NCBI GenBank assembly: GCA_021773795.1
Contig: JAJFJT010000012.1
Location: 124,001 to 188,000 of the forward strand
From: Gammaproteobacteria bacterium
GTDB taxonomy: Bacteria > Pseudomonadota > Gammaproteobacteria > HK1
Direction: 5' to 3'
Length of the DNA: 64,000 nucleotides
Each line of letters starts with the position of its first letter. Position 1 is the stretch's first letter. The notes under the pieces are model-generated. The model was not told the origin of the DNA, made no database searches, and saw only the letters and a program-made list of their open reading frames with translations. Below are positions 47,650 through 58,889 of the stretch, one piece after another. The position numbers and the translations under genes are program-made.

Positions 47650-47928
47650 ATGATAAAGAGCTTTCGGCACAAGGGAATCAAAAGGTTTTATGCCACCGGT
47701 TCAATGTCTGGAATCCAGTCTACTCATGCGTCCAGATTGGCACGCCAATTAGCGCGATTGAATTGGGCAACGACTCCGGCCGATATGAATGTTCCCGGCT
47801 GGAAACTACACTCATTAAAAGGCCGGCTTGCAGGCCAATGGGCGGTATCAGTCAATGGTAACTGGCGCCTGATCTTCAGGCTCAGAAACGGTGATGCGTT
47901 CAACGTTGATTATGACGATTATCACTGA
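47650..47928 (+). CDS. higB: HigB-type toxin (RelE superfamily mRNA interferase)
   Basis: 92 residues. Start [18 protein letters not shown], then [13 protein letters not shown], the [20 protein letters not shown] segment and [20 protein letters not shown] end, all as in HigB toxins that cleave mRNA on the ribosome. It is followed 11 bases later by its antitoxin, the toxin-first order of higBA. Confidence 0.93.
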
Positions 47929-47939
47929 GGAAAAATGAA

Positions 47940-48212
47940 ATGAATCATATGTTTAATCCACCACATCCCGGTGAAACGCTACGGGAAGATGTGCTGCCTG
48001 AAATGGGCCTGACGATTACCGAGGCGGCCAAACAACTGGGCGTTAGTCGTGTCGCTTTATCCCGGGTATTGAATGGTCATGCAGCCATATCTCCTGAAAT
48101 GGCATTACGAGTGGAGGCATGGCTCGGTGTGGAAAACGGCGGTAGTGCTGATGTCTGGCTTGGTCAGCAGATGACCTATGATTTATGGCGGGCCAGGCAG
48201 AGAGTGGCTTGA
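47940..48212 (+). CDS. higA: HigA-type antitoxin, XRE family
   Basis: 90 residues with an HTH ([20 protein letters not shown], about 27-47) and the family start [16 protein letters not shown]. The C-terminal YDLWRARQR ends as in HigA. ATG 47940 has TGAGGA upstream. It neutralises HigB and represses the pair. Confidence 0.93.
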
Positions 48213-48296
48213 CTAATTTGTAGCGACGAGTTGAAAGAGCATCCTATCCTTGCAGGTAGTTTGGACTGCCTGGGGCAATAAAGAGAAATGAGTATT

Positions 48297-48811
48297 GATC
48301 CTCCCCCGGGATACCGGACACTGAGTTAAGAATTATATAATGATTCAAAACGAGGTGACAGATGAGCAGACAACGAAGGAATCACGGACCAGAATTCAAG
48401 CGTGAAGCGGTGGCACTGGTGGTTGCGCGAGGCTACAGCTGTGCGGATGCAGGGCGCAGTTTGGGTGTCAATGGCTCTTTAATCGGGCGCTGGAAACGGG
48501 AATTGGAAAACCACGCCGTTGAGGCGTTTCCCGGTAAGGGTAAACGCACACCGGAGCAGCAGCGTATTTACGAACTGGAAACAGAGAATCGCCGGCTGCG
48601 GATGGAGAAAGAAATATTAAAAAAAGCCACGGTGCGTTCAATGGGTCAATGCAACACTCTGTATTCTGGCAAAGAAAGGCGGAGTGTAATTCATGGCGTT
48701 CTGGATGACTGCGGGAGGCAGAGCGACGCAGGATCCCACGCCGAAAATACGGCATCGCAGCCAGAACACTTTTGTCAAGAATTATTACACGTTCGAAGCA
48801 GGCTTAATTAA
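48297..48811 (+). mobile_element. IS3-family remnant, left copy (orfA fragment)
   Basis: The element starts at tgatcctcccccgggataccgg (48297 onward), a terminal repeat. orfA begins at ATG 48362: MSRQRRNHGPEFKREAVALV, an IS3 OrfA HTH start, then GRSLGVNGSLIGRWKRELEN and a coiled-coil (YELETENRRLRMEKEILKKA). After KKATV (about 48635) the frame loses similarity, and orfB (DDE) is absent. The first 135 bases are repeated inverted at 56909-57046. Confidence 0.85.
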
Positions 48812-49078
48812 CTGAAAAATGGCGAAAATCCTGGTGTACTAGCCGCAATCGGCGGGGAAATGCCGCCGATACTGTCAATAAACTTTACACTTACGTCTCA
48901 AAATGGACGGGGCATCGCTGCGGTTCTATTCATAACTAATTGTAAAAACTATAATTATTAATAAACCACAAGTTTGGTATTATTCAACAACGTCTAACCA
49001 GTCGCTACAGTGTGCAGCATCGCGCCGCAGCGGTCGTGCCTCATGGTGCGTTGCTGAAGTTTAACGGGAGTAAATTCG

Positions 49079-50014
49079 ATGATGTCAAAGGACGACGCGG
49101 ACCAGAAAACACGAAAACAGGACGACAGAGCCAAGCGATGGTTCAGTTACCTCATCAGCACCAGTGCGGCCGTGACCGCCGGCCAGGCCAACGCCACCAT
49201 TATGTACTTCGACCCGTTTCCCGATCTCGTCGCCAGCGATACTGACGTCGACGTGGAAAGCGGGGTGCAACAGATTAATGTCACGTTTCAACGCGATTAC
49301 CCCTTTGCCGTCGGCGGCGGGAGCCACGACAGCGGCATGCCCAACAAAAGCGACCCCGACTTTTCCCGCCCCGTCTTTTCATCCAACGCCTGGGTCAGCG
49401 GGGCGGCGCAGCCCGGGCCCGATGGACTGATCCTGAGGCCAAGGGACATGGGCGGGGACACCGCCTCAAAATCTGATCCCCAGGATCCGACCGGGAAAGC
49501 CGGCGACGCGCCGGGTTCCGTTATTGGGGGTGCCAACGTGCGGGCGGCGCTGGGGTTGAGTATGGGTGATCTGATCGGCCCTGCTCTCGATTGGACGGCG
49601 CGCGGGACCGACAAAGACGGGCAGGGTCAGCCCATGGGGGCCGGCAATAACCAATATCTCGGTTTTCAGTGGGCGGCAGGCGGCAAGGGTAGTGTTGGTC
49701 CTGCGGGCTTCAACTACGGCTGGCTGAACTATTCGTATACGGAGAACTTCCCTTCGTCCGATCCGCCAAAAGGGGGAGGGGGCAGCCCAAAAGGGGGCGG
49801 CTCCATCACCTCCGTCAGGGGGCTCAGCAGTGTAACGTTGCACGATTATGCATTTGAAACTGATTTGGACACGCCGATAAGCGCCGGCGCAGGACGACAG
49901 GTAAGTAGCGTAGCGGAACCCGGTACCCTGGCCCTCCTGAGTCTCGGCGCCTCGGGGATTGTGGCGCTGCGGCGACGGCGACTGGTTCGAGCAAAGGCCA
50001 ACCAGGCGGCCTGA
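49079..50014 (+). CDS. PEP-CTERM exported protein, unknown family
   Basis: 311 residues. The N-terminus is charged (MSKDDADQKTRKQDDRAKRW) followed by a hydrophobic segment (FSYLISTSAAVTAGQANA) that serves as signal peptide. The middle is Gly/Asp/Pro-rich with no known domain. The C-terminus is VAEPGTLALLSLGASGIVAL then RRRRLVRAK: the PEP-like motif (EPGT), a hydrophobic helix and a basic tail, the layout used by exosortase. Tyr-rich acidic stretch FNYGWLNYSYTENF near residue 220. First gene of the sulfotransferase cassette; GGGAG precedes the ATG. Confidence 0.85.
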   Translation: MMSKDDADQKTRKQDDRAKRWFSYLISTSAAVTAGQANATIMYFDPFPDLVASDTDVDVESGVQQINVTFQRDYPFAVGGGSHDSGMPNKSDPDFSRPVFSSNAWVSGAAQPGPDGLILRPRDMGGDTASKSDPQDPTGKAGDAPGSVIGGANVRAALGLSMGDLIGPALDWTARGTDKDGQGQPMGAGNNQYLGFQWAAGGKGSVGPAGFNYGWLNYSYTENFPSSDPPKGGGGSPKGGGSITSVRGLSSVTLHDYAFETDLDTPISAGAGRQVSSVAEPGTLALLSLGASGIVALRRRRLVRAKANQAA

Positions 50015-50084
50015 GCGGTCGCCGCACAGGCGCCCGCCCGAGGCGTTTCCATAGCGGTCATTGCCGGCAGGCTGTTGAAAAATC

Positions 50085-52781
50085 ATGGCGAAAGTAGTGC
50101 TCATTGGTTGGCCGGGCGCGGATTCGGCGCCGCTGAACGCATTGATCGATGCGGGCGAGATGCCGTGCCTGACGCAAATTGTCGACCAGGGCGCGATCGG
50201 ATCCCTCGCCGGAAACCGCCCCGTCGTCGCCCCGCTGGTGTGGAATTCAATCGCCACCGGTACGCGTGCGTACCAGCATAGAATACTGGGTCTGCACACC
50301 GTCGATGAACGCTCGGCCGAGGTTGCCCCGATCAGCGCCGCGACCCGTGGCGTACCTGCGATTTGGGAAATCCTGGCGATGTACGGCCTGCGCTGCGGTG
50401 TCGTTGGTTGGTGGGCGACGCACGGCAGCCGGCTGGCGGATTCCTGTGTCGTTTCCGAAGCGTTCGGCCACCCCGCGCTGGCCGCCACTGCGGAGCTGAC
50501 CGAGCGCTCGATCCACCCGGCCAGCTTACACAATGTGCTCGCGCCGCTATGGGTCCACCCCGAAGAAATGGACAAGGACGCAGTGTCGTTCTTTTTCCCG
50601 GATGATTTCGACTTATCTCGGGTACCCCGGCCCGTGCTGACGGCTGTCGCCGAGGCGCTGGCCTTTTCCGCCTCCCGACATGCCGCGTTCACGAAGCTGA
50701 TCAGTGACGAAACCTTGGATTTCGCCGCCGTCTGTTTGCCGCTGCTGGAGTCGTTCGCACCTGCTCTGGTGAGTTATGGCCCTGTCTTGAAACACAATAA
50801 GGAAGCGGGCGAACTGGTGCGCTACGCGCTGAACGCCGGATACAAACTGCTTGACCAATTCCTCCAGCGCACGCTGGAACTGTGTGGAAAGGATGTCACG
50901 GTGCTGCTGGTGTCGCCATACGGGGCGAAATTCGGCGCCCGGGAACGGGTGCCGCCGCATCTGCGTCCTAACGGGATCCTGATCGCCGCCGGCTCCACGA
51001 TCGAAAAAGACAGCATAATCCACGGCGCCAACGCGCTGGATATCGCGCCCACGTTGCTTCAGCTTTTTGACCTGCCTGTTGGGCACAAAATGGAAGGTCG
51101 CGTCCTGGCCGAGCTTTTTCGCGAACCGCGGACTACGACCATCGCGACGTCGTGGCCCGAGCAGTATCCTCTTACCGGCAACCAGGAATCAGGTCCCGAC
51201 GACCCGGTTTCTTTAGACACCATAGGTCGAACACTGGCGGCGCATTTTGCGCGACTTCAAGTCGTCGATTCCATGATTCCCATGCGTCCCGACGTACGCC
51301 GTGTACGAGAGCGAATGCGTTGGTATCTTGCGCTGAGTTTCCTGGATGGGCGAAACCCTTCCCGGGCGTTGCCGCTGCTGGAAGAACTCAGTCATGAAGA
51401 ACCGGAAAGTGATTTGTATGCCTTGCGTCTTGCCGGCTGTCAGCTCCAGCTGAACATGCTTCAGGAGGCGCGCGCGTCGGTCGATCTCGTGCTGGCGATG
51501 TCACCGGATTCTACCGCTGCGCGCATGCTTCTCGCCCGATTGGAGCAGCGCTCGGGTCACGCCGAACCCGCGCTCAGGCAACTTCAGGAGCTCGAGCGCA
51601 TGAATCCGGGCGGCGTTTTTCTGTACGACCAGATGGGCCTGGCCTATTTACGATTACGCCACTGGCCGCAGGCGATCGAGCAGTTCCGCAAAGCCCTGGA
51701 ACTGGAGCCGGACGACGCCGCGGCGTATCTGGGGGTTGCGCGCGGGTCGCTTGGCGCACGCTGCTACGAAGACGCGGCCGACGCCGCCCTGAGCAGCATC
51801 GGGATAAGCTATCAGCAACCGGTGGCGCACTATATCCTCGGCTTGGCTCTCGCGAGGCAGGAAAAGACGGAACAAGCGCTAAAAGCGTTTGAAGTAGCCG
51901 CGGTCTTAGCGCCCGAATCGCCCAGGGCGCATTACCAACTCTTACGATTCAAACGCTCGCTCGGCGCCAGCGAAGCCGAGCTTGCACCGCATCGCCGCGC
52001 AGTTGCGGGGATGACCCGTGGCAAACGAGAAATCCAGGCGCAGATCAGCGAGCAGGCCGAACGACGCGAAGAACAGCGCCGGGCGTTAACCGCGGCGCGC
52101 CGTCAGCGCGACGCCTCGGAGTGGGAGGAAGCAGTACTCGCCGGGTATCCGGACATGCCGCGCGACAGCACGCCAATGAACCTTACTGTGGTATCCGGGC
52201 TCCCGCGCTCCGGGTGCTCGCTCGTCGCGCAAATGCTTGCTGTGGGCGGCCATGAGCTGCACAGCGACAAGCCGGGCGACCCGACGGTCAGCGACTGGCT
52301 GGCGCTGCGGCAACTACCGCGCAAGCCCGATGTTCTGGACGAGGCACGGGGCAAAGCCGTCAAAATCTTGTCCCCGCTGCTGTCGGCCTTGCCTCAGGTA
52401 CATCATTACAAAATCCTGTTCGTGCACCGGCCGCTCGCGGAAATAGTCATGTCGCAGCAACAGGTTCTGCAACAGTGCGGACGGGATCTCGACATGACGT
52501 TTTCAGCGGCGGAAGGGGCTCGCTTATTGGCACGGCACCGCAGTGCTGTTCTTGGCTGGCTGCGCATCGCGCCGAATATCGACCTGCTGGAACTCGATTA
52601 CCCCAAATTGTGCGAGGAGCCCGCTGTATACATCGACCAGATTGTAGACTTCATCGGCCAGGATCGGCTGCCGTTTTTCCAGAACATGAGCGCCGTTGTC
52701 GACGATAGCCGACATCGTGTTCGTCTCGATAGCGATAGTATCCCGGACGAGCTGCGATTCAATCTGCTGTTTGCCACCTGA
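50085..52781 (+). CDS. Pseudo-alkaline-phosphatase / TPR / sulfotransferase-like fusion
   Basis: 898 residues in three parts. (1) About 1-355: alkaline phosphatase/phosphodiesterase fold (VVLIGWPGADSAPLNALIDA, VAPLVWNSIATGTRAY, VLLVSPYGAKFG, GANALDIAPTLLQLF). (2) About 400-620: TPR-like repeats (ALPLLEELSHEEPESDLYAL, FLYDQMGLAYLRLRHWPQAI, PDDAAAYLGVARGSLG). (3) About 705-898: a sulfotransferase-like domain with the 5'-phosphosulfate loop LPRSGCSLVAQML and the 3' segment FVHRPLAEIVMSQQQVL. In the first domain the expected metal and nucleophile residues are missing, so it is probably not a phosphatase. ATG 50085 lacks a strong ribosome site. Confidence 0.85.
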   Translation: MAKVVLIGWPGADSAPLNALIDAGEMPCLTQIVDQGAIGSLAGNRPVVAPLVWNSIATGTRAYQHRILGLHTVDERSAEVAPISAATRGVPAIWEILAMYGLRCGVVGWWATHGSRLADSCVVSEAFGHPALAATAELTERSIHPASLHNVLAPLWVHPEEMDKDAVSFFFPDDFDLSRVPRPVLTAVAEALAFSASRHAAFTKLISDETLDFAAVCLPLLESFAPALVSYGPVLKHNKEAGELVRYALNAGYKLLDQFLQRTLELCGKDVTVLLVSPYGAKFGARERVPPHLRPNGILIAAGSTIEKDSIIHGANALDIAPTLLQLFDLPVGHKMEGRVLAELFREPRTTTIATSWPEQYPLTGNQESGPDDPVSLDTIGRTLAAHFARLQVVDSMIPMRPDVRRVRERMRWYLALSFLDGRNPSRALPLLEELSHEEPESDLYALRLAGCQLQLNMLQEARASVDLVLAMSPDSTAARMLLARLEQRSGHAEPALRQLQELERMNPGGVFLYDQMGLAYLRLRHWPQAIEQFRKALELEPDDAAAYLGVARGSLGARCYEDAADAALSSIGISYQQPVAHYILGLALARQEKTEQALKAFEVAAVLAPESPRAHYQLLRFKRSLGASEAELAPHRRAVAGMTRGKREIQAQISEQAERREEQRRALTAARRQRDASEWEEAVLAGYPDMPRDSTPMNLTVVSGLPRSGCSLVAQMLAVGGHELHSDKPGDPTVSDWLALRQLPRKPDVLDEARGKAVKILSPLLSALPQVHHYKILFVHRPLAEIVMSQQQVLQQCGRDLDMTFSAAEGARLLARHRSAVLGWLRIAPNIDLLELDYPKLCEEPAVYIDQIVDFIGQDRLPFFQNMSAVVDDSRHRVRLDSDSIPDELRFNLLFAT

Positions 52782-52800
52782 ATCAAATGAGGACACGTGG

Positions 52801-53295
52801 ATGTTTTATGATCCCGGAATCGTAAGTGCGACGAAAGTACTGCAGGATAGCTATATCGCGATCCGGGAAGAGCTCGATACCTTACTTTCGACCCAGTTCG
52901 TGAAGTGGCCTGAACATTCACTCTACACCGGGGATTGGACCGTGTTCGGATTCTACGGATTCGGCCGCAGGTTGCATGAGAACTGCCAACTGTGTCCGCG
53001 GACTGCCGCCATCGTCGATAGCATTCCTGATAAGAATATGGCCGGTTTTTCCAAACTCGCGGCAGGGACGCGTATAGGATCGCATTGTGGGCGCCCGAAG
53101 TCGCAGCTACGTTGCCATCTCGCGCTGAAAATTCCTGCCGGCGATGTTGGTCTGCGCGTCGGCCCGGAAGTTCGCCGGTGGACGGAAGGCGAATGCCTGC
53201 TTTTCGACGACACCAAGGAGCACGAGGCATGGAATCTCGCCGAAGAGGATCGCATCGTGCTGCTGGTCGACGTGCAGAAGCCGGTCGCCGCATAA
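52801..53295 (+). CDS. Aspartyl/asparaginyl beta-hydroxylase-like protein
   Basis: 165 residues from ATG 52801 (GAGGA upstream), 20 bases after the fusion gene. The family core is present: SKLAAGTRIGSHCGRPKS, LRCHLALKIPAGDVGLRV, and GECLLFDDTKEHEAWN. His in SHCG and His in KEHEAWN match the two Fe(II)-binding histidines and the Arg in LRCHL/VRRW the 2-oxoglutarate side. These enzymes hydroxylate Asp or Asn in peptides or act on other substrates. Here it lacks any membrane anchor, so it is cytoplasmic. Confidence 0.83.
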   Translation: MFYDPGIVSATKVLQDSYIAIREELDTLLSTQFVKWPEHSLYTGDWTVFGFYGFGRRLHENCQLCPRTAAIVDSIPDKNMAGFSKLAAGTRIGSHCGRPKSQLRCHLALKIPAGDVGLRVGPEVRRWTEGECLLFDDTKEHEAWNLAEEDRIVLLVDVQKPVAA

Positions 53296-53410
53296 CCGAT
53301 AAATGATATGTCATCGTCACGCTAATGGTTGCTCGTAATTGGGCGGACTTTGATCGCACCGATCATCGATCTCGCAGATCTCGGGCGTACCAATTAGCAG
53401 AGAATCCAGC

Positions 53411-54370
53411 ATGGCATCGCGCAGTCATCAGCGAGAACTTTCGGTGACGGATACAGCGATCGATTTTCGGCCGGCCTGGCCCGACGAATATGCCCGCGTG
53501 AGTCGATTGTTTGCCCGGCCGATCCCCCATGCTCAGGGCATTCGAGCGCTGGTAGCGGTGCGCACCGAACCGCGTGAGCAAATCCTTTCCGCCGCGGTTC
53601 TGCTCCCGTACAAGCAGCCGGATTTCGACACGAGCCTCGGGGTACAGGGACGCCTGAGGTGGGCGTCACATGCCACTTACCGAGATTCCGAAGTAGAGCT
53701 TGGATTGCTTCGTTATACCTGTAAGGAGGCCGAACGCCGGGGGTTGGCAAAGCTGGTAACCGATTCATTTTTCAGCGAAGGCGACGCGGCCATCGATAAT
53801 CTTCGCGCGCTCGGATTCAATAGGTCCGAGACGATCGAGGAATACGAGGCTGACTTTGATGTCGTCTGGAGCCGGTGCTCGCGAATTTGTGAAAGGCTAC
53901 GGCTGAAAGGATCGATTCCGGCGGACGCACGGATCACTGGCGTGGAACATTCTATTGTAGGCGATGTCCGCCGGCGACTACATATGGAACGAATCATGGA
54001 TACGTTCGATTTCGACTCCAGGTTAATGCCGGGGCACCCACAACCCGCCGACCTTGAAAGGAGTACGGCCATACTTCTCGATAACCGTCTGGTTGGCGCC
54101 ATGGTCGTCGCGCCGTTGACAGGCGAAGGCGGCTATCTCGTGATTGGACGTTGGGTCGCGCCCGAATTTCGTCGCGGCTGGTTGAACGCCGTCCTCATCC
54201 ACAATTCGGTGCGCCAGGGTGTTGAGATGAACCTATCTTTCGTACGTTTTGTGGCGAATTCTCGCTTTCACTCTGAGACCAGAGCGCTCGCCCGAAGGTT
54301 GGGCGGGCGCAGCGCCAATATACGTCATCGGTATACGCTGGAGAGCGCGGCGACGCCAACTGATCCTTAA
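53411..54370 (+). CDS. Tandem GNAT-like protein
   Basis: 319 residues. Two parts resemble acetyltransferase folds: about 20-150 (YTCKEAERRGLAKLVTDSFF, NLRALGFNRSETIEEYEADF) and about 205-305 (TAILLDNRLVGAMVVAPLTG, VIGRWVAPEFRRGWLNAVLI, SRFHSETRALARRLGGR). The second keeps a VAPEFRRGWLNAVLIH segment similar to the acetyl-CoA binding V-x-x-x-x-R-x-x-G. The acyl acceptor is unknown. It ends tail to tail with the sulfotransferase on the other strand, overlap 4 bases. Confidence 0.6.
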   Translation: MASRSHQRELSVTDTAIDFRPAWPDEYARVSRLFARPIPHAQGIRALVAVRTEPREQILSAAVLLPYKQPDFDTSLGVQGRLRWASHATYRDSEVELGLLRYTCKEAERRGLAKLVTDSFFSEGDAAIDNLRALGFNRSETIEEYEADFDVVWSRCSRICERLRLKGSIPADARITGVEHSIVGDVRRRLHMERIMDTFDFDSRLMPGHPQPADLERSTAILLDNRLVGAMVVAPLTGEGGYLVIGRWVAPEFRRGWLNAVLIHNSVRQGVEMNLSFVRFVANSRFHSETRALARRLGGRSANIRHRYTLESAATPTDP

Positions 54371-55218
54371 TCCGAAACTCGCAGTTGTTCGACATTCCAG
54401 CCGACCGCTTGTGAACGTGATATCGGATAACCGAGCGCCTTGATAGCGGCACCCGCGATCTGTGCGACCGCACGAACTTGCGAGTCGTCGAAATATTCCA
54501 TCCAATTTCCCCAACCGCCACGAAAAACGTGATCTGGTTGCCGCGCGCGCGTCCGGTCGAGTTGATGGTCCGCCGCAATCCGTTCGATTTGTGCGTCTGC
54601 AAGTCCGAGCTTGAGGTAGCGCACGAGCCGCGCAAGCTCACCGACGGTATCGGCTACCAGACGTTCGTAAAAAATGACGTGGGGTCGCGCATCGGCGTGG
54701 CCCTTGATCAAATGGCCGACTGTGTGTTCCAGCCATGCTTGCACAATGCCCGCGAATCTATGTTTGAGAAATTCGTCCGGTCCGGAAAAGGGAGCAGGGG
54801 CGTGCAGAAGATTAAAGGGCGTAAACATGAACCGAGAGAAGGAAACGGCAACATCTCTCGGATCGCGCAGAATCAGGATGCGATGCGAGAACGCCCTGTA
54901 CTGGTCGGCACAAGAAGGGTGCCATGGAGAATGGCATAGCACCAAGTTCGTTCTTGAAGCATATTCTGCCAGATCTTCGACGGGCCATCGGAATACTTCG
55001 CCAATCTTGAAAAAGGATCCGGCAGGATCGATCGTTATGTCATCGGCGTTGTTTTGGCCGCGAATTCCAAACTGCTCGCGGTCGAGCGCTTCCGCTACTG
55101 GATTGCCATCTATCGCCTGATGACACTCGCCAGTCGCCACTTCGACGGCTGACCGTATCAGGTAGTTCAACCATACATTTCCGCTTTTCGGATAACCGAG
55201 GGACAGGACGCTTACCAT
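54367..55218 (-). CDS. Sulfotransferase (PF00685-type)
   Basis: 283 residues. PAPS-binding loop LGYPKSGNVWLNYLIRSAVE at the N-terminus (Lys and Ser in PKSGN contact the phosphosulfate), 3'-phosphate segment HRILILRDPRDVAVSFSR (about 117), and the C-terminal GGWGNWMEYF motif (like RKGxxGDW). A catalytic base His is likely within FKIGEVFRWP...LCHSPW. Sulfates a hydroxyl or amino group on carbohydrate, lipid or peptide. Its start is only 22 bases from the start of the divergent 100-residue gene. Confidence 0.9.
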   Translation of the reverse strand: MVSVLSLGYPKSGNVWLNYLIRSAVEVATGECHQAIDGNPVAEALDREQFGIRGQNNADDITIDPAGSFFKIGEVFRWPVEDLAEYASRTNLVLCHSPWHPSCADQYRAFSHRILILRDPRDVAVSFSRFMFTPFNLLHAPAPFSGPDEFLKHRFAGIVQAWLEHTVGHLIKGHADARPHVIFYERLVADTVGELARLVRYLKLGLADAQIERIAADHQLDRTRARQPDHVFRGGWGNWMEYFDDSQVRAVAQIAGAAIKALGYPISRSQAVGWNVEQLRVSD

Positions 55219-55240
55219 TGCACGGACACAAGCTTAGACG

Positions 55241-55543
55241 ATGCAAATACCGGTGCCGCACTATTACAGTGATACGCGGAACTCGTTTCAAACATTCGAA
55301 GGTGTCACAAAATTCTCCCCGACCCTGTTTTTACGACCAGGCCTGGACAAACCGCAAGGTGCGCATCCATCGGCGCGTAAGTATTCATTACCCGGCCATT
55401 TATGCTGCGACCCGTTCCAGCCAAAGCATGTTCCATGGTCGCAAAGACACGTGTGGCATTACGATCTGGAGTATCCTTGGAACGATACGGAATTTTCAGC
55501 GAACCGGGACCTGATGCGTAATTATAATGGATTGCCAGTGTGA
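55241..55543 (+). CDS. Tyr/Trp/His-rich small protein coupled to sulfotransferase 2
   Basis: 100 residues, no known domain. Contains VPHYYSDTRNSF, PSARKYSLPGHLCCDPFQPK and WHYDLEYPWNDTEFSANRDL. Tyrosines next to acids (HYDLEYPWNDTE) resemble tyrosine sulfation sites. Its TGA overlaps the GTG of the next gene (gtga), strong support that it is real and translated. It could be a substrate or an accessory subunit. No signal peptide seen. Confidence 0.55.
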   Translation: MQIPVPHYYSDTRNSFQTFEGVTKFSPTLFLRPGLDKPQGAHPSARKYSLPGHLCCDPFQPKHVPWSQRHVWHYDLEYPWNDTEFSANRDLMRNYNGLPV

Positions 55544-56439
55544 CGACTGACTGCCAATGCCCCGAACCGCATATTCTGTACGCTGGAATGATAAATAGCG
55601 GCAACCGGTTATTACACGAGCTGCTCAACGACTATTTACCGTTACTGGGAGTTTCCGCCGCGCAGTTCATCGCGAACCATCCTGTTGCTCAGATCCTCGT
55701 TCGCGAAGATCTTGGCGTTCCGGATATATCGACGATCGATTGTATCGACATCCAACCCCTTCGATGCTATTTCAGTATCCTCGATGTATTCCGCTGGCCA
55801 ATCGAAGATCTCGAAACATACGTAGCGAGGTCTACCCATGTGGCGACTCATTCACCCTGGAACACTTTTTCCGCAGAAGTGTTCGATAAGTTCACGCATC
55901 GCATTTACATCATACGCGATCCTCGTGATGCGGCGCTTCGTACGGCCCGAATTGCGTGCACGCCCGCCTTCAGGAAACATCGTCCACAACCATTCGATAC
56001 CGTCGGCGAATATATTGATTACCACCTCGCCTCGTTGGTTCGTTTATGGTTAAGGCATGTGATTGACCATGTCCGAAATGCCAGTGCTTCTCGAATACAT
56101 TTCGTTTTTTACGAGCACATGATCGACGACGAGCGACAGTTCATGGAGCACTTACGGGAGTATCTCGGTTTTACGGTGGACAAAGCCGGTATCGAACGGC
56201 GCCCAGCTGCGGCCGACCTCGGCCCGGCAAAGGGGGGCGCCACACGTAACGTATTCGAAGGCGGTTGGGGAGAGTGGCGAGAAATGCTCACCAACTACCA
56301 AATCAAAAACGTCGCGAATATCGCGGGTGACGTATTGGGAGCCCTCGGCTACCCGCCAACCGTGGAGGAAGCTCTGGACTGGGACAGCAGTTCTTTGAAC
56401 ACCGAGTTCCTGACCGGATATCTCCAACCGATCGCATAG
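55540..56439 (+). CDS. Second sulfotransferase-like protein, degenerate PAPS loop
   Basis: 299 residues, clearly related in layout to the gene at 54367-55218: FSILDVFRWPIEDLETYVAR, HSPWNTFS, RIYIIRDPRDAALRTAR and GGWGEWREMLTNYQIKN are shared. The N-terminal loop is LYAGMINSGNRLLHELL, where the usual PKSGN is INSGN, so the PAPS lysine is replaced by Asn. It may be weaker, inactive, or a binding partner. Start GTG overlaps the 100-residue gene by 4 bases. Confidence 0.82.
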   Translation: MTTDCQCPEPHILYAGMINSGNRLLHELLNDYLPLLGVSAAQFIANHPVAQILVREDLGVPDISTIDCIDIQPLRCYFSILDVFRWPIEDLETYVARSTHVATHSPWNTFSAEVFDKFTHRIYIIRDPRDAALRTARIACTPAFRKHRPQPFDTVGEYIDYHLASLVRLWLRHVIDHVRNASASRIHFVFYEHMIDDERQFMEHLREYLGFTVDKAGIERRPAAADLGPAKGGATRNVFEGGWGEWREMLTNYQIKNVANIAGDVLGALGYPPTVEEALDWDSSSLNTEFLTGYLQPIA

Positions 56440-56631
56440 TACGCCGGCGGCGACGGTATAAGTCCACGCAGAATAAACGCTTTTTCGTCACCAGCCATCG
56501 GATCAGTGACGGTCGAGGAAGGGCCATACGCCCGGGCGCCAAACCGAAAGTTTTTGCGGTTCTTCGCATTCGATCCAGCCATCTTCGCTTGCCCGTCCCC
56601 TAATTGCGCAGTTCCCCAGGCTCTGCCCCAT

Positions 56632-56790
56632 TCATTGCCAGTGGCAGTCGATCAGTTGCGCGCCAATCTCGCCGGTGTTTTCGATCGTGATGGTATAAGC
56701 GAACATATAACGTTCGGCTTCCCGGTTGGACTGTGCCCCGACGTCGGTCGTGGTGTTTGTGACGTGGATGGCGTACCTGGAGTTATTCAT
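56632..56790 (-). pseudogene. apaG: Truncated apaG (ApaG/DUF525 domain, N-terminal half)
   Basis: From ATG 56790 the frame reads NSRYAIHVTNTTTDVGAQSN, ERYMFAYTITIENTGEIGAQ, LIDCHWQ and stops. This is the N-terminal half of ApaG (the AQSxxxxxRYxFAYTITIxN motif is clear), but it ends where the domain would continue with the I-I-T-D-A-N-G strand. So it is a broken gene left at the island edge; upstream it fuses in frame with IS3 orfA remnant DNA. Confidence 0.78.
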
Positions 56791-56908
56791 CGGGATGCTT
56801 TGATCTTCAACGTCTGGCGGATACGCGATCCGCTTGTGTACGTCCGGCGCCGAGGGGACGGTCCAGTGTACGCAGGCTGATAGCCTCGCCAATGTGTACC
56901 TCACCGAT

Positions 56909-57046
56909 GCCTTGCGCAACCACCAGTGCCACCGCTTCACGCTTGAATTCTGGTCCGTGCTTCCTTCGTTGTCTGCTCATCTGTCACCTCGTTTTGAATC
57001 ATTATATAATTCTTAACTCGGTGTCCGGTATCCCGGGGGAGGATCA
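56909..57046 (-). mobile_element. IS3-family remnant, right copy (inverted)
   Basis: Reverse complement of 48297 to about 48432 with few differences: the terminal repeat tgatcctcccccgggatacc (ending at 57046) and the orfA start at ATG 56980. Similarity stops near 56910 where the sequence switches to apaG-side DNA. Only the left end of the IS is left. Inverted with respect to the left copy. Confidence 0.85.
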
Positions 57047-57123
57047 GTATTGCAGGTCTTGGGGCTGCGAGAAGACGCTTTAAGGTTAGCAGCTCACAAT
57101 AACCTAATCTCTCTATGACTTAT

Positions 57124-58025: not shown

Positions 58026-58134
58026 GGGACTGAAAATTAGAAAGTCAGAGCCAAGTCTAGATTTAAAGCTTTCCTCACTATGAGGTGGAAGCTGCGAGCA
58101 CGAGGAAATACGGGAATAAAGGCGACGTTACCCA

Positions 58135-58284
58135 TCAATGCGAATTTTGTTTCTCGCTTTCAAGATGCATCAGGAATTCTTCAGGTGAGAGGGCCCGCAC
58201 CGGCGATTTTTTAAAGTCACCCAGGTTTCGGGCCACGATAGCATCGCAGCCACAAGTTATGACGAGAGAAAGCGCAGTCCCAAT
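58135..58284 (-). pseudogene. PIN-domain toxin remnant (VapC-like C-terminus)
   Basis: The reverse strand encodes LENIGTALSLVITCGCDAIV, ARNLGDFKKSPVRALSPEEF and LMHLESEKQNSH before the stop at 58135. This is the C-terminal third of a PIN domain (GCDAIVARN-DF-SPEEFL). The upstream half is gone; parDE sits there. gatagcatcgcagccacaag is also present at 57275, so two PIN fragments share ancestry. Confidence 0.65.
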
Positions 58285-58306
58285 ATTTTCCAGTCTTGAG
58301 TTGGAT

Positions 58307-58336
58307 ATGGTGCAATATCGTGTAATTATGCACCAT
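58307..58336. promoter_or_regulatory. Palindromic operator upstream of parDE
   Basis: atggtgca (58307-58314) and tgcaccat (58329-58336) are perfect inverted 8-mers with a 14-base spacer, 24 bases before parD. Toxin-antitoxin operons are usually repressed by the antitoxin through such sites. Confidence 0.55.
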
Positions 58337-58360
58337 ATGGTTACTTATTGGAGTCGGGAA

Positions 58361-58615
58361 ATGCCGAGACAATCCATCACTTTCAGCGATCCTAATCACA
58401 GTTGGATAATTGAAAAACTCGAAAGTAAAGAGTTTAAAAGCAACAGTGAGGTGGTTAATGACGCGCTTAGAAAAATTCGGGCGCTGGAACAAAGCCAGGT
58501 TGAAGCGATCCGCGCTGCTCTCGACATCGGCGAACAAAGTGGCACCAGCCACCGCACCGCAGACGAAATTATCAAGACCGTGATCAAGCGCAAGAAAAAT
58601 AATGGCGAGCTATGA
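58361..58615 (+). CDS. parD: ParD-type antitoxin
   Basis: 84 residues from ATG 58361. Ribbon-helix-helix start MPRQSITFSDPNHSWIIEKL, then ESKEFKSNSEVVNDALRKIR and a charged C-terminus with TADEIIKTVIKRKK. Overlaps parE by 14 bases. The open frame extends upstream but that part is PIN-remnant DNA. Confidence 0.9.
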   Translation: MPRQSITFSDPNHSWIIEKLESKEFKSNSEVVNDALRKIRALEQSQVEAIRAALDIGEQSGTSHRTADEIIKTVIKRKKNNGEL

Positions 58616-58889
58616 GTTAGCTAATGCCGCCGCTGATGATTTCGAAAATATCCTTGATTTCGGGATTGATACATTTGGCCTTGAGCAGGCATTGAAGTAC
58701 CAGAATGGTATGACACAGCGTTTTGCTGAGCTGGCAGAACAGCCAGCGCTTTACCCTACCGTTGATCATATCCGCAAGGATTACCGCCGCAGCGTTTACC
58801 ATTCGCATTCAATTTATTATCGGATTGAAGCAAAGCGAATTTTCATCGTGCGGATTCTAGGCCGGCAAGATGCTGGAAAGGTGTTTTAG
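58602..58889 (+). CDS. parE: ParE-type toxin
   Basis: 95 residues of the RelE/ParE fold: YELANAAADDFENILDFGID, FGLEQALKYQNGMTQRFAEL, and YRRSVYHSHSIYYRIEAKRI then VRILGRQDAGKVF. Gyrase-targeting toxins have this pattern. Looks intact. It ends 24 bases before the convergent yejB stop, at the right edge of the island. Confidence 0.92.
   Translation: MASYELANAAADDFENILDFGIDTFGLEQALKYQNGMTQRFAELAEQPALYPTVDHIRKDYRRSVYHSHSIYYRIEAKRIFIVRILGRQDAGKVF

Follow-up and report, generated by a model that had tools for sequence, protein, structure and literature searches.

Gene content of the locus

The stretch of DNA analysed here (64,000 nucleotides in all, hereafter the window) contains a block of seven genes (Table 1) that looks like an undescribed toolkit, i.e. 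one exported surface protein together with several cytoplasmic modifying enzymes that probably decorate this protein before export. All the open reading frames that an earlier note had described in this DNA are present, position for position. Its domain calls are borne out by a Pfam search, which finds a PEP-CTERM tail, a fusion of alkaline phosphatase superfamily (AP), TPR and sulfotransferase-like domains, an Asp_Arg_Hydrox domain and two PF00685 sulfotransferases. No glycosyltransferase was found within the block, either in the list of open reading frames or in the Pfam search, and a hydropathy scan detected no signal peptide or membrane helix in any of the enzyme gene products.

Table 1. 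Positions of the genes and sequence features in the window.
Feature	Position	Strand	Remarks
Left arm of 141-nt inverted repeat	48293..48433	+	97% identity; 5' end of IS3-type element
PrsR box (PEP-CTERM motif 1) TGTCAATAAACTTTACA	48873..48889	+	YGTC-N7-TTTACA match
PEP-CTERM protein, presumed substrate	49079..50014	+	311 aa; PF07589/TIGR02595
Pseudo-phosphatase (AP superfamily)/TPR/sulfotransferase-like fusion, presumed scaffold	50085..52781	+	898 aa; Phosphodiest + TPR
AspH-type 2OG/Fe hydroxylase	52801..53295	+	164 aa; PF05118; His95, His141, Arg151 kept
Tandem GNAT-like protein	53411..54370	+	319 aa; homologues' matches and profile-profile alignment
ST1, stand-alone sulfotransferase	54367..55218	-	PF00685; Lys, catalytic His, Ser kept
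Small Tyr-containing ORF	55241..55543	+	100 aa; doubtful coding status
ST2, sulfotransferase paralogue	55540..56439	+	PF00685; probably inactive (Lys->Asn19, Ser->Arg134)
apaG remnant, truncated	56635..56790 (approximate)	-	ApaG domain; adjoins right IS arm
Right arm of 141-nt inverted repeat	56909..57049	-	97% identity to left arm

The inverted repeat that brackets the block corresponds to the 5' portion of an IS3-type element (orfA at 48362-48811; HTH_Tnp_1, E 1.4e-11), and the apaG remnant just inside the right arm covers only positions 2-35 of the 87 in the ApaG profile. The region 48293-57049 looks like an IS-bounded island. The codon adaptation of the block is below that of its neighbours, and horizontal transfer is the likely route of its acquisition. 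A HigB-like toxin and HTH antitoxin pair lies to the left of the island (47650-48212), and a probable second toxin-antitoxin pair, recognised by sequence only, lies to the right of it (58085-58889; RHH-like and RelE/ParE-like ORFs).

The exosortase substrate and the host genome

The PEP-CTERM protein has a C-terminal PEP motif followed by a hydrophobic stretch and a basic end; its tail matches PF07589 (E 3e-4, Pfam) and scores above the cut-off of TIGR02595 (NCBIfam). The host genome (2.56 Mb, 99% complete) encodes exosortase A (TIGR03109, 245 bits versus a cut-off of 208), PrsK and PrsR, both above cut-off, an XrtA chain-length gene and approximately 18 PEP-CTERM proteins. These results agree with the previous claim that the block includes an exosortase-substrate gene. 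Two APS kinases are also encoded, so the genes for PAPS synthesis, on which the earlier proposal of a modification pathway depended, are present, as is the exosortase that it had suggested looking for. Elsewhere in the same genome (locus L019, G000:C21, 2243-11775), one TPR-sulfotransferase gene and several TPR-methyltransferase genes form an unusual array amid near-identical porin-like genes.

The PEP-CTERM gene is preceded, at a distance of 190 nt, by a PrsR box, the 17-nt motif described in PMC1569441. YGTC-N7-TTTACA has this single match in the 64-kb window, where 0.10 matches are expected, and most other PEP-CTERM genes of the host genome and those of several relatives have such a box upstream. 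No clear sigma-54 (-24/-12) site was seen upstream of the PEP-CTERM gene of the block.

Tyr is not enriched in the presumed substrate and Cys is absent from it. No Pfam or NCBIfam family spans this PEP-CTERM family as a whole, and AlphaFold models of the PEP-CTERM protein and of the GNAT-like protein, each modelled alone, reached pLDDT values of only 31-35, too low to be informative.

Conservation of the catalytic sites

The hydroxylase, for which ATG 52801 is the probable start, matches PF05118 with an E-value of 1.7e-44 and the catalytic domain of mammalian AspH in the PDB with 1e-20. Aligned to AspH, it keeps the two iron-binding histidines and the 2OG-binding arginine, and it scores far under the NCBIfam cut-offs for LpxO and OlsC. 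When genome contigs were scanned with the hydroxylase, the only matches were two loci from Streptomyces, whose neighbouring genes were uninformative. Plasmid and viral collections yielded no useful relatives.

In the fusion protein, Pfam detects a Phosphodiest domain (E 1.6e-5), then TPR repeats and a weak sulfotransferase C-terminus; the corresponding values in an intact relative (L042) are 1e-25 for Phosphodiest and 1e-9 for Sulfotransfer_3. The Thr/Ser nucleophile and the metal-binding Asp/His residues of active AP-superfamily phosphodiesterases are present in L017, L018, L041 and L042. The window protein lacks them: the nucleophile Thr is replaced by Asn54, a metal-binding Asp by Pro10, and SDHG reads SPYG. 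The label pseudo-phosphatase was thus well chosen, and the domain looks catalytically dead. The AP site is degraded in L016 and L043 as well, and partly in L040 and L049. The P-loop of the fused sulfotransferase is intact in the same four loci with an intact AP site, kept in the window and lost in L016.

ST1 and ST2 match PF00685 with E-values of 1.8e-13 and 1.1e-10, respectively. PAPS sulfotransferases have Lys/Arg in the 5' motif, Ser in the 3' motif and a His/Glu base (PMC6637879). All three are found in ST1 (Lys11, Ser126 and His96), which also matches sulfotransferases in the PDB; its gene converges on the GNAT gene. In ST2 the PAPS-binding Lys/Arg and Ser are lost, their positions being taken by Asn19 and Arg134, and judging by these replacements it is probably inactive. 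The small ORF overlaps the start of ST2 by 4 nt and has the lowest codon adaptation among the genes of the block. It had been taken for a small exported protein, a suggestion that finds no support here, as the ORF has no hydrophobic export segment, no homologue in the loci compared and no Pfam or NCBIfam family.

The GNAT-like protein of the window has no direct Pfam match. Nevertheless, its description as a tandem GNAT is upheld by its full-length homologues, which match Acetyltransf_1, and by a profile-profile alignment over 287 columns (E 2.4e-13). The first half carries an RxxGxG/A-type motif in L040 and L049; this canonical acetyl-CoA motif is missing from the first half in the window and in L016. 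In the PDB, the GNAT profile comes closest to protein N-acetyltransferases such as RimI (E 6e-4). The tandem protein as a whole is covered by no Pfam or NCBIfam family, and no NCBIfam model of an exosortase-associated acyltransferase gave a match, searched to an E-value of 1 for the window protein and to 0.01 for its relatives.

Co-occurrence of the genes in other genomes

The search with a fusion-protein profile covered 369 genomes of the class and 398 genomes of the phylum; the samples overlap somewhat and comprise approximately 700 genomes. The phosphatase-like part was found in nine full-length loci from eight genomes and seven families, namely the window, L016 and L017 (both G031), L018 (G002), L040 (G328), L041 (G254), L042 (G370), L043 (G317) and L049 (G702); three further genomes had the sulfotransferase part only. 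In all nine loci a PEP-CTERM-like gene is next upstream on the same strand, either directly or with the GNAT gene in between. We note that the tails of the PEP-CTERM-like proteins in G031 have no clear PEP motif.

The linked PEP-CTERM proteins were compared using leave-one-out HMMs built without the tail. They were recognised with E-values of 1e-4 to 1e-14 (2e-14 for the window protein), whereas other PEP-CTERM proteins of the host genome gave 0.003 to 0.2 as a rule. In the weakest case, L043, the protein is truncated by the end of the contig, and its value does not stand clear of its best negative (0.00014 versus 0.0003). As the recognition does not depend on the tail, the linkage concerns one specific protein family and not the sorting signal alone.

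The tandem GNAT is adjacent to the AP/TPR protein in six of the nine loci. Conversely, the GNAT profile gave six strong matches in the sampled genomes (E below 1e-10), every one of them beside an AP/TPR protein. G328 was recovered independently by the fusion and the GNAT profiles; the GNAT of G702 was seen first as a neighbour and was afterwards put into the GNAT profile. Taken together, the two linkages define a conserved core that consists of the PEP-CTERM protein, the AP/TPR protein with or without its sulfotransferase (ST) part, and the GNAT. The recurrence of the gene set, which was the other point on which the earlier proposal hung, is seen in at least seven families, in the form of this core.

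The serial order of the genes varies: PEP-GNAT-AP/TPR in G328, G702 and G317, PEP-AP/TPR/ST-GNAT in G002, PEP-AP/TPR/ST in G254, G370 and the second G031 locus, and GNAT-ST-PEP-AP/TPR/ST-HYD (HYD, hydroxylase) in G031. Many of the junctions are overlaps of 1-7 nt or gaps of less than 20 nt, for example GNAT/ST -4, PEP/AP -4 and AP/HYD +1 nt in G031, GNAT/AP -4 nt in G702 and PEP/AP +11 nt in G254. Among twelve genomes searched, the AspH-type hydroxylase and sulfotransferases of the ST1/ST2 type occur only in the window genome and in the distant G031:C40; the hydroxylase and the stand-alone sulfotransferases are add-ons to the core. The module is absent from G001, a genome of the same genus as the host, in searches with both the fusion and the GNAT profiles.

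Two neighbours of the G031 loci may be mentioned. Beside L017 there is an LpxO-like hydroxylase, which was treated as unrelated because of its opposite strand and different subtype. A carbamoyltransferase gene (L016, 5210-6937) lies a few genes from the G031 cluster, also on the opposite strand.

Comparison with known systems

Searches of open-access literature for PEP-CTERM proteins in connection with sulfotransferases or the alkaline phosphatase superfamily turned up no account of this module. The PEP-CTERM/exosortase A (EpsH) system with PrsK, PrsR and PrsT (PMC1569441) shares with it the PEP-CTERM substrate, XrtA, PrsK, PrsR and the PrsR box, but the text of that paper mentions no sulfotransferase, phosphodiesterase, acetyltransferase or hydroxylase. 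Moreover, PrsT is a TPR lipoprotein, whereas the TPR protein of the block shows no N-terminal export signal in the hydropathy scan and carries AP and sulfotransferase domains.

The RaxX-RaxST-RaxAB system (PMC6637879) is similar in that a cytoplasmic sulfotransferase gene lies beside an exported substrate and PAPS comes from housekeeping genes. RaxX, however, is a 60-residue double-glycine peptide with type I export, and the presumed substrate of the block is the 311-residue PEP-CTERM protein; the block has neither a small double-glycine substrate nor a RaxA/RaxB exporter. Mammalian AspH has the same His/His/Arg catalytic domain with TPR on the same chain; in the block the TPR is on a partner protein and the hydroxylase is a free 164-aa domain. 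Since the presumed substrate has no Cys it has no EGF-like domain, unlike the mammalian case. Finally, the N-acyl amino acid synthases reportedly linked to PEP-CTERM systems resemble the block in having an acyltransferase gene beside PEP-CTERM genes, and differ in that the GNAT of the block has tandem domains outside the exosortase-associated acyltransferase model.

A putative modification module

These data are best explained if a conserved PEP-CTERM/exosortase A accessory module has undergone a lineage-specific expansion in the block. In our preferred reading, which we consider about as likely as not, the cognate PEP-CTERM protein is modified in the cytoplasm before export, with the TPR protein as a scaffold. 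PrsK and PrsR would switch on the operon, and the TPR protein would bind the newly made PEP-CTERM protein in the cytoplasm and present it to the GNAT for acylation, a reaction suggested by the protein N-acetyltransferases among its PDB relatives. In the window lineage the protein would also be presented to the AspH-type hydroxylase and to the PAPS-dependent ST1, and the modified protein would then leave the cytoplasm through Sec and undergo processing by XrtA. Hydroxylation and sulfation by stand-alone enzymes are possible, on sequence grounds, for the window lineage and G031 only. As the phosphatase domain and ST2 lack catalytic residues, the fusion would in the window lineage be mainly a scaffold or substrate-binding protein. 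Wherever stand-alone enzymes joined the module, the fusion protein may have decayed towards a scaffold.

Such a modification is favoured by how closely a single PEP-CTERM family is linked to cytoplasmic enzymes and a TPR scaffold. The match of the hydroxylase to AspH, a protein hydroxylase, with His/His/Arg kept, also counts for it, as do the PrsR box, XrtA, PrsK, PrsR and the two APS kinases. Against it count the catalytic decay in several parts, which does not suit an active multi-step pathway, the unremarkable Tyr and absent Cys content of the presumed substrate, and the G031 tails without a clear PEP motif. A pathway that modifies an exported PEP-CTERM protein, along the lines of the earlier idea, is thus a good lead as regards the co-occurring genes, the APS kinases and the exosortase. 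The sulfotransferases and hydroxylase stressed in the note lie outside the conserved core, ST2 looks dead, and Tyr/Ser sulfation and Asp hydroxylation are no more than candidate reactions.

The modified molecule could instead be a glycan, a lipid or a small molecule, e.g. by sulfation or acylation of exopolysaccharide, with the PEP-CTERM protein as a co-expressed surface carrier or anchor. PEP-CTERM systems are associated with exopolysaccharide (PMC1569441), the host has the XrtA chain-length gene, and the Asp_Arg_Hydrox relatives include the lipid hydroxylases LpxO and OlsC. G083 and G144 have a related sulfotransferase domain and AP-type proteins amid apparent glycosyltransferases and no PEP-CTERM gene (L044 and L045), which suits a glycan target and speaks against protein modification. 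We consider a non-protein target rather unlikely all the same, given the absence of a glycosyltransferase from the block, the closeness of the hydroxylase to AspH rather than LpxO/OlsC, and a first partner that in every case comes from the same particular PEP-CTERM family. The clusters in question (L044, 134-9179; L045, 4386-11195), with their stand-alone sulfotransferase domain, phosphatase-like proteins, apparent glycosyltransferases and further enzymes, possibly belong to a related glycan system.

The lost or partly lost AP sites, the dead ST2 and the degraded GNAT motif would all make sense if the AP/TPR protein and the GNAT were mainly a dedicated chaperone or scaffold for PEP-CTERM export or sorting, with little or no covalent chemistry. 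This is improbable, as no key residue is missing from the hydroxylase or ST1, and the AP site and the fused P-loop are intact in four loci. It is very improbable that the GNAT acts as an N-acyl amino acid synthase and that the block produces an acyl amino acid bearing sulfate or hydroxyl groups: the link of such synthases to PEP-CTERM systems is given by the title of Craig et al. 2011, cited in PMC8776678, but the GNAT falls outside the exosortase-associated model and is closest to protein acetyltransferases. The inverted repeat around the block could point to a chance assembly by insertion sequences, which we regard as hardly credible; for the core it is ruled out by the recurrence in seven families (crude chance estimate 1e-9 or lower), although the small ORF and ST2 may have arrived by chance.

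To our knowledge, little has been established about the roles and the processing of PEP-CTERM proteins. A module that always accompanies one PEP-CTERM family and brings its own modifying enzymes offers a concrete substrate-enzyme pair, and pre-export modification of this protein would mean a further maturation step in exosortase sorting and would extend bacterial protein sulfation beyond RaxX. A full pre-export line built on the TPR/pseudo-phosphatase protein, which adds acyl, hydroxyl and sulfate groups to an exosortase substrate, is unlikely on present evidence; it would be the first system for protein modification with a link to PEP-CTERM sorting, and perhaps also the first in which AspH-type hydroxylation of a bacterial protein is coupled to sulfation.
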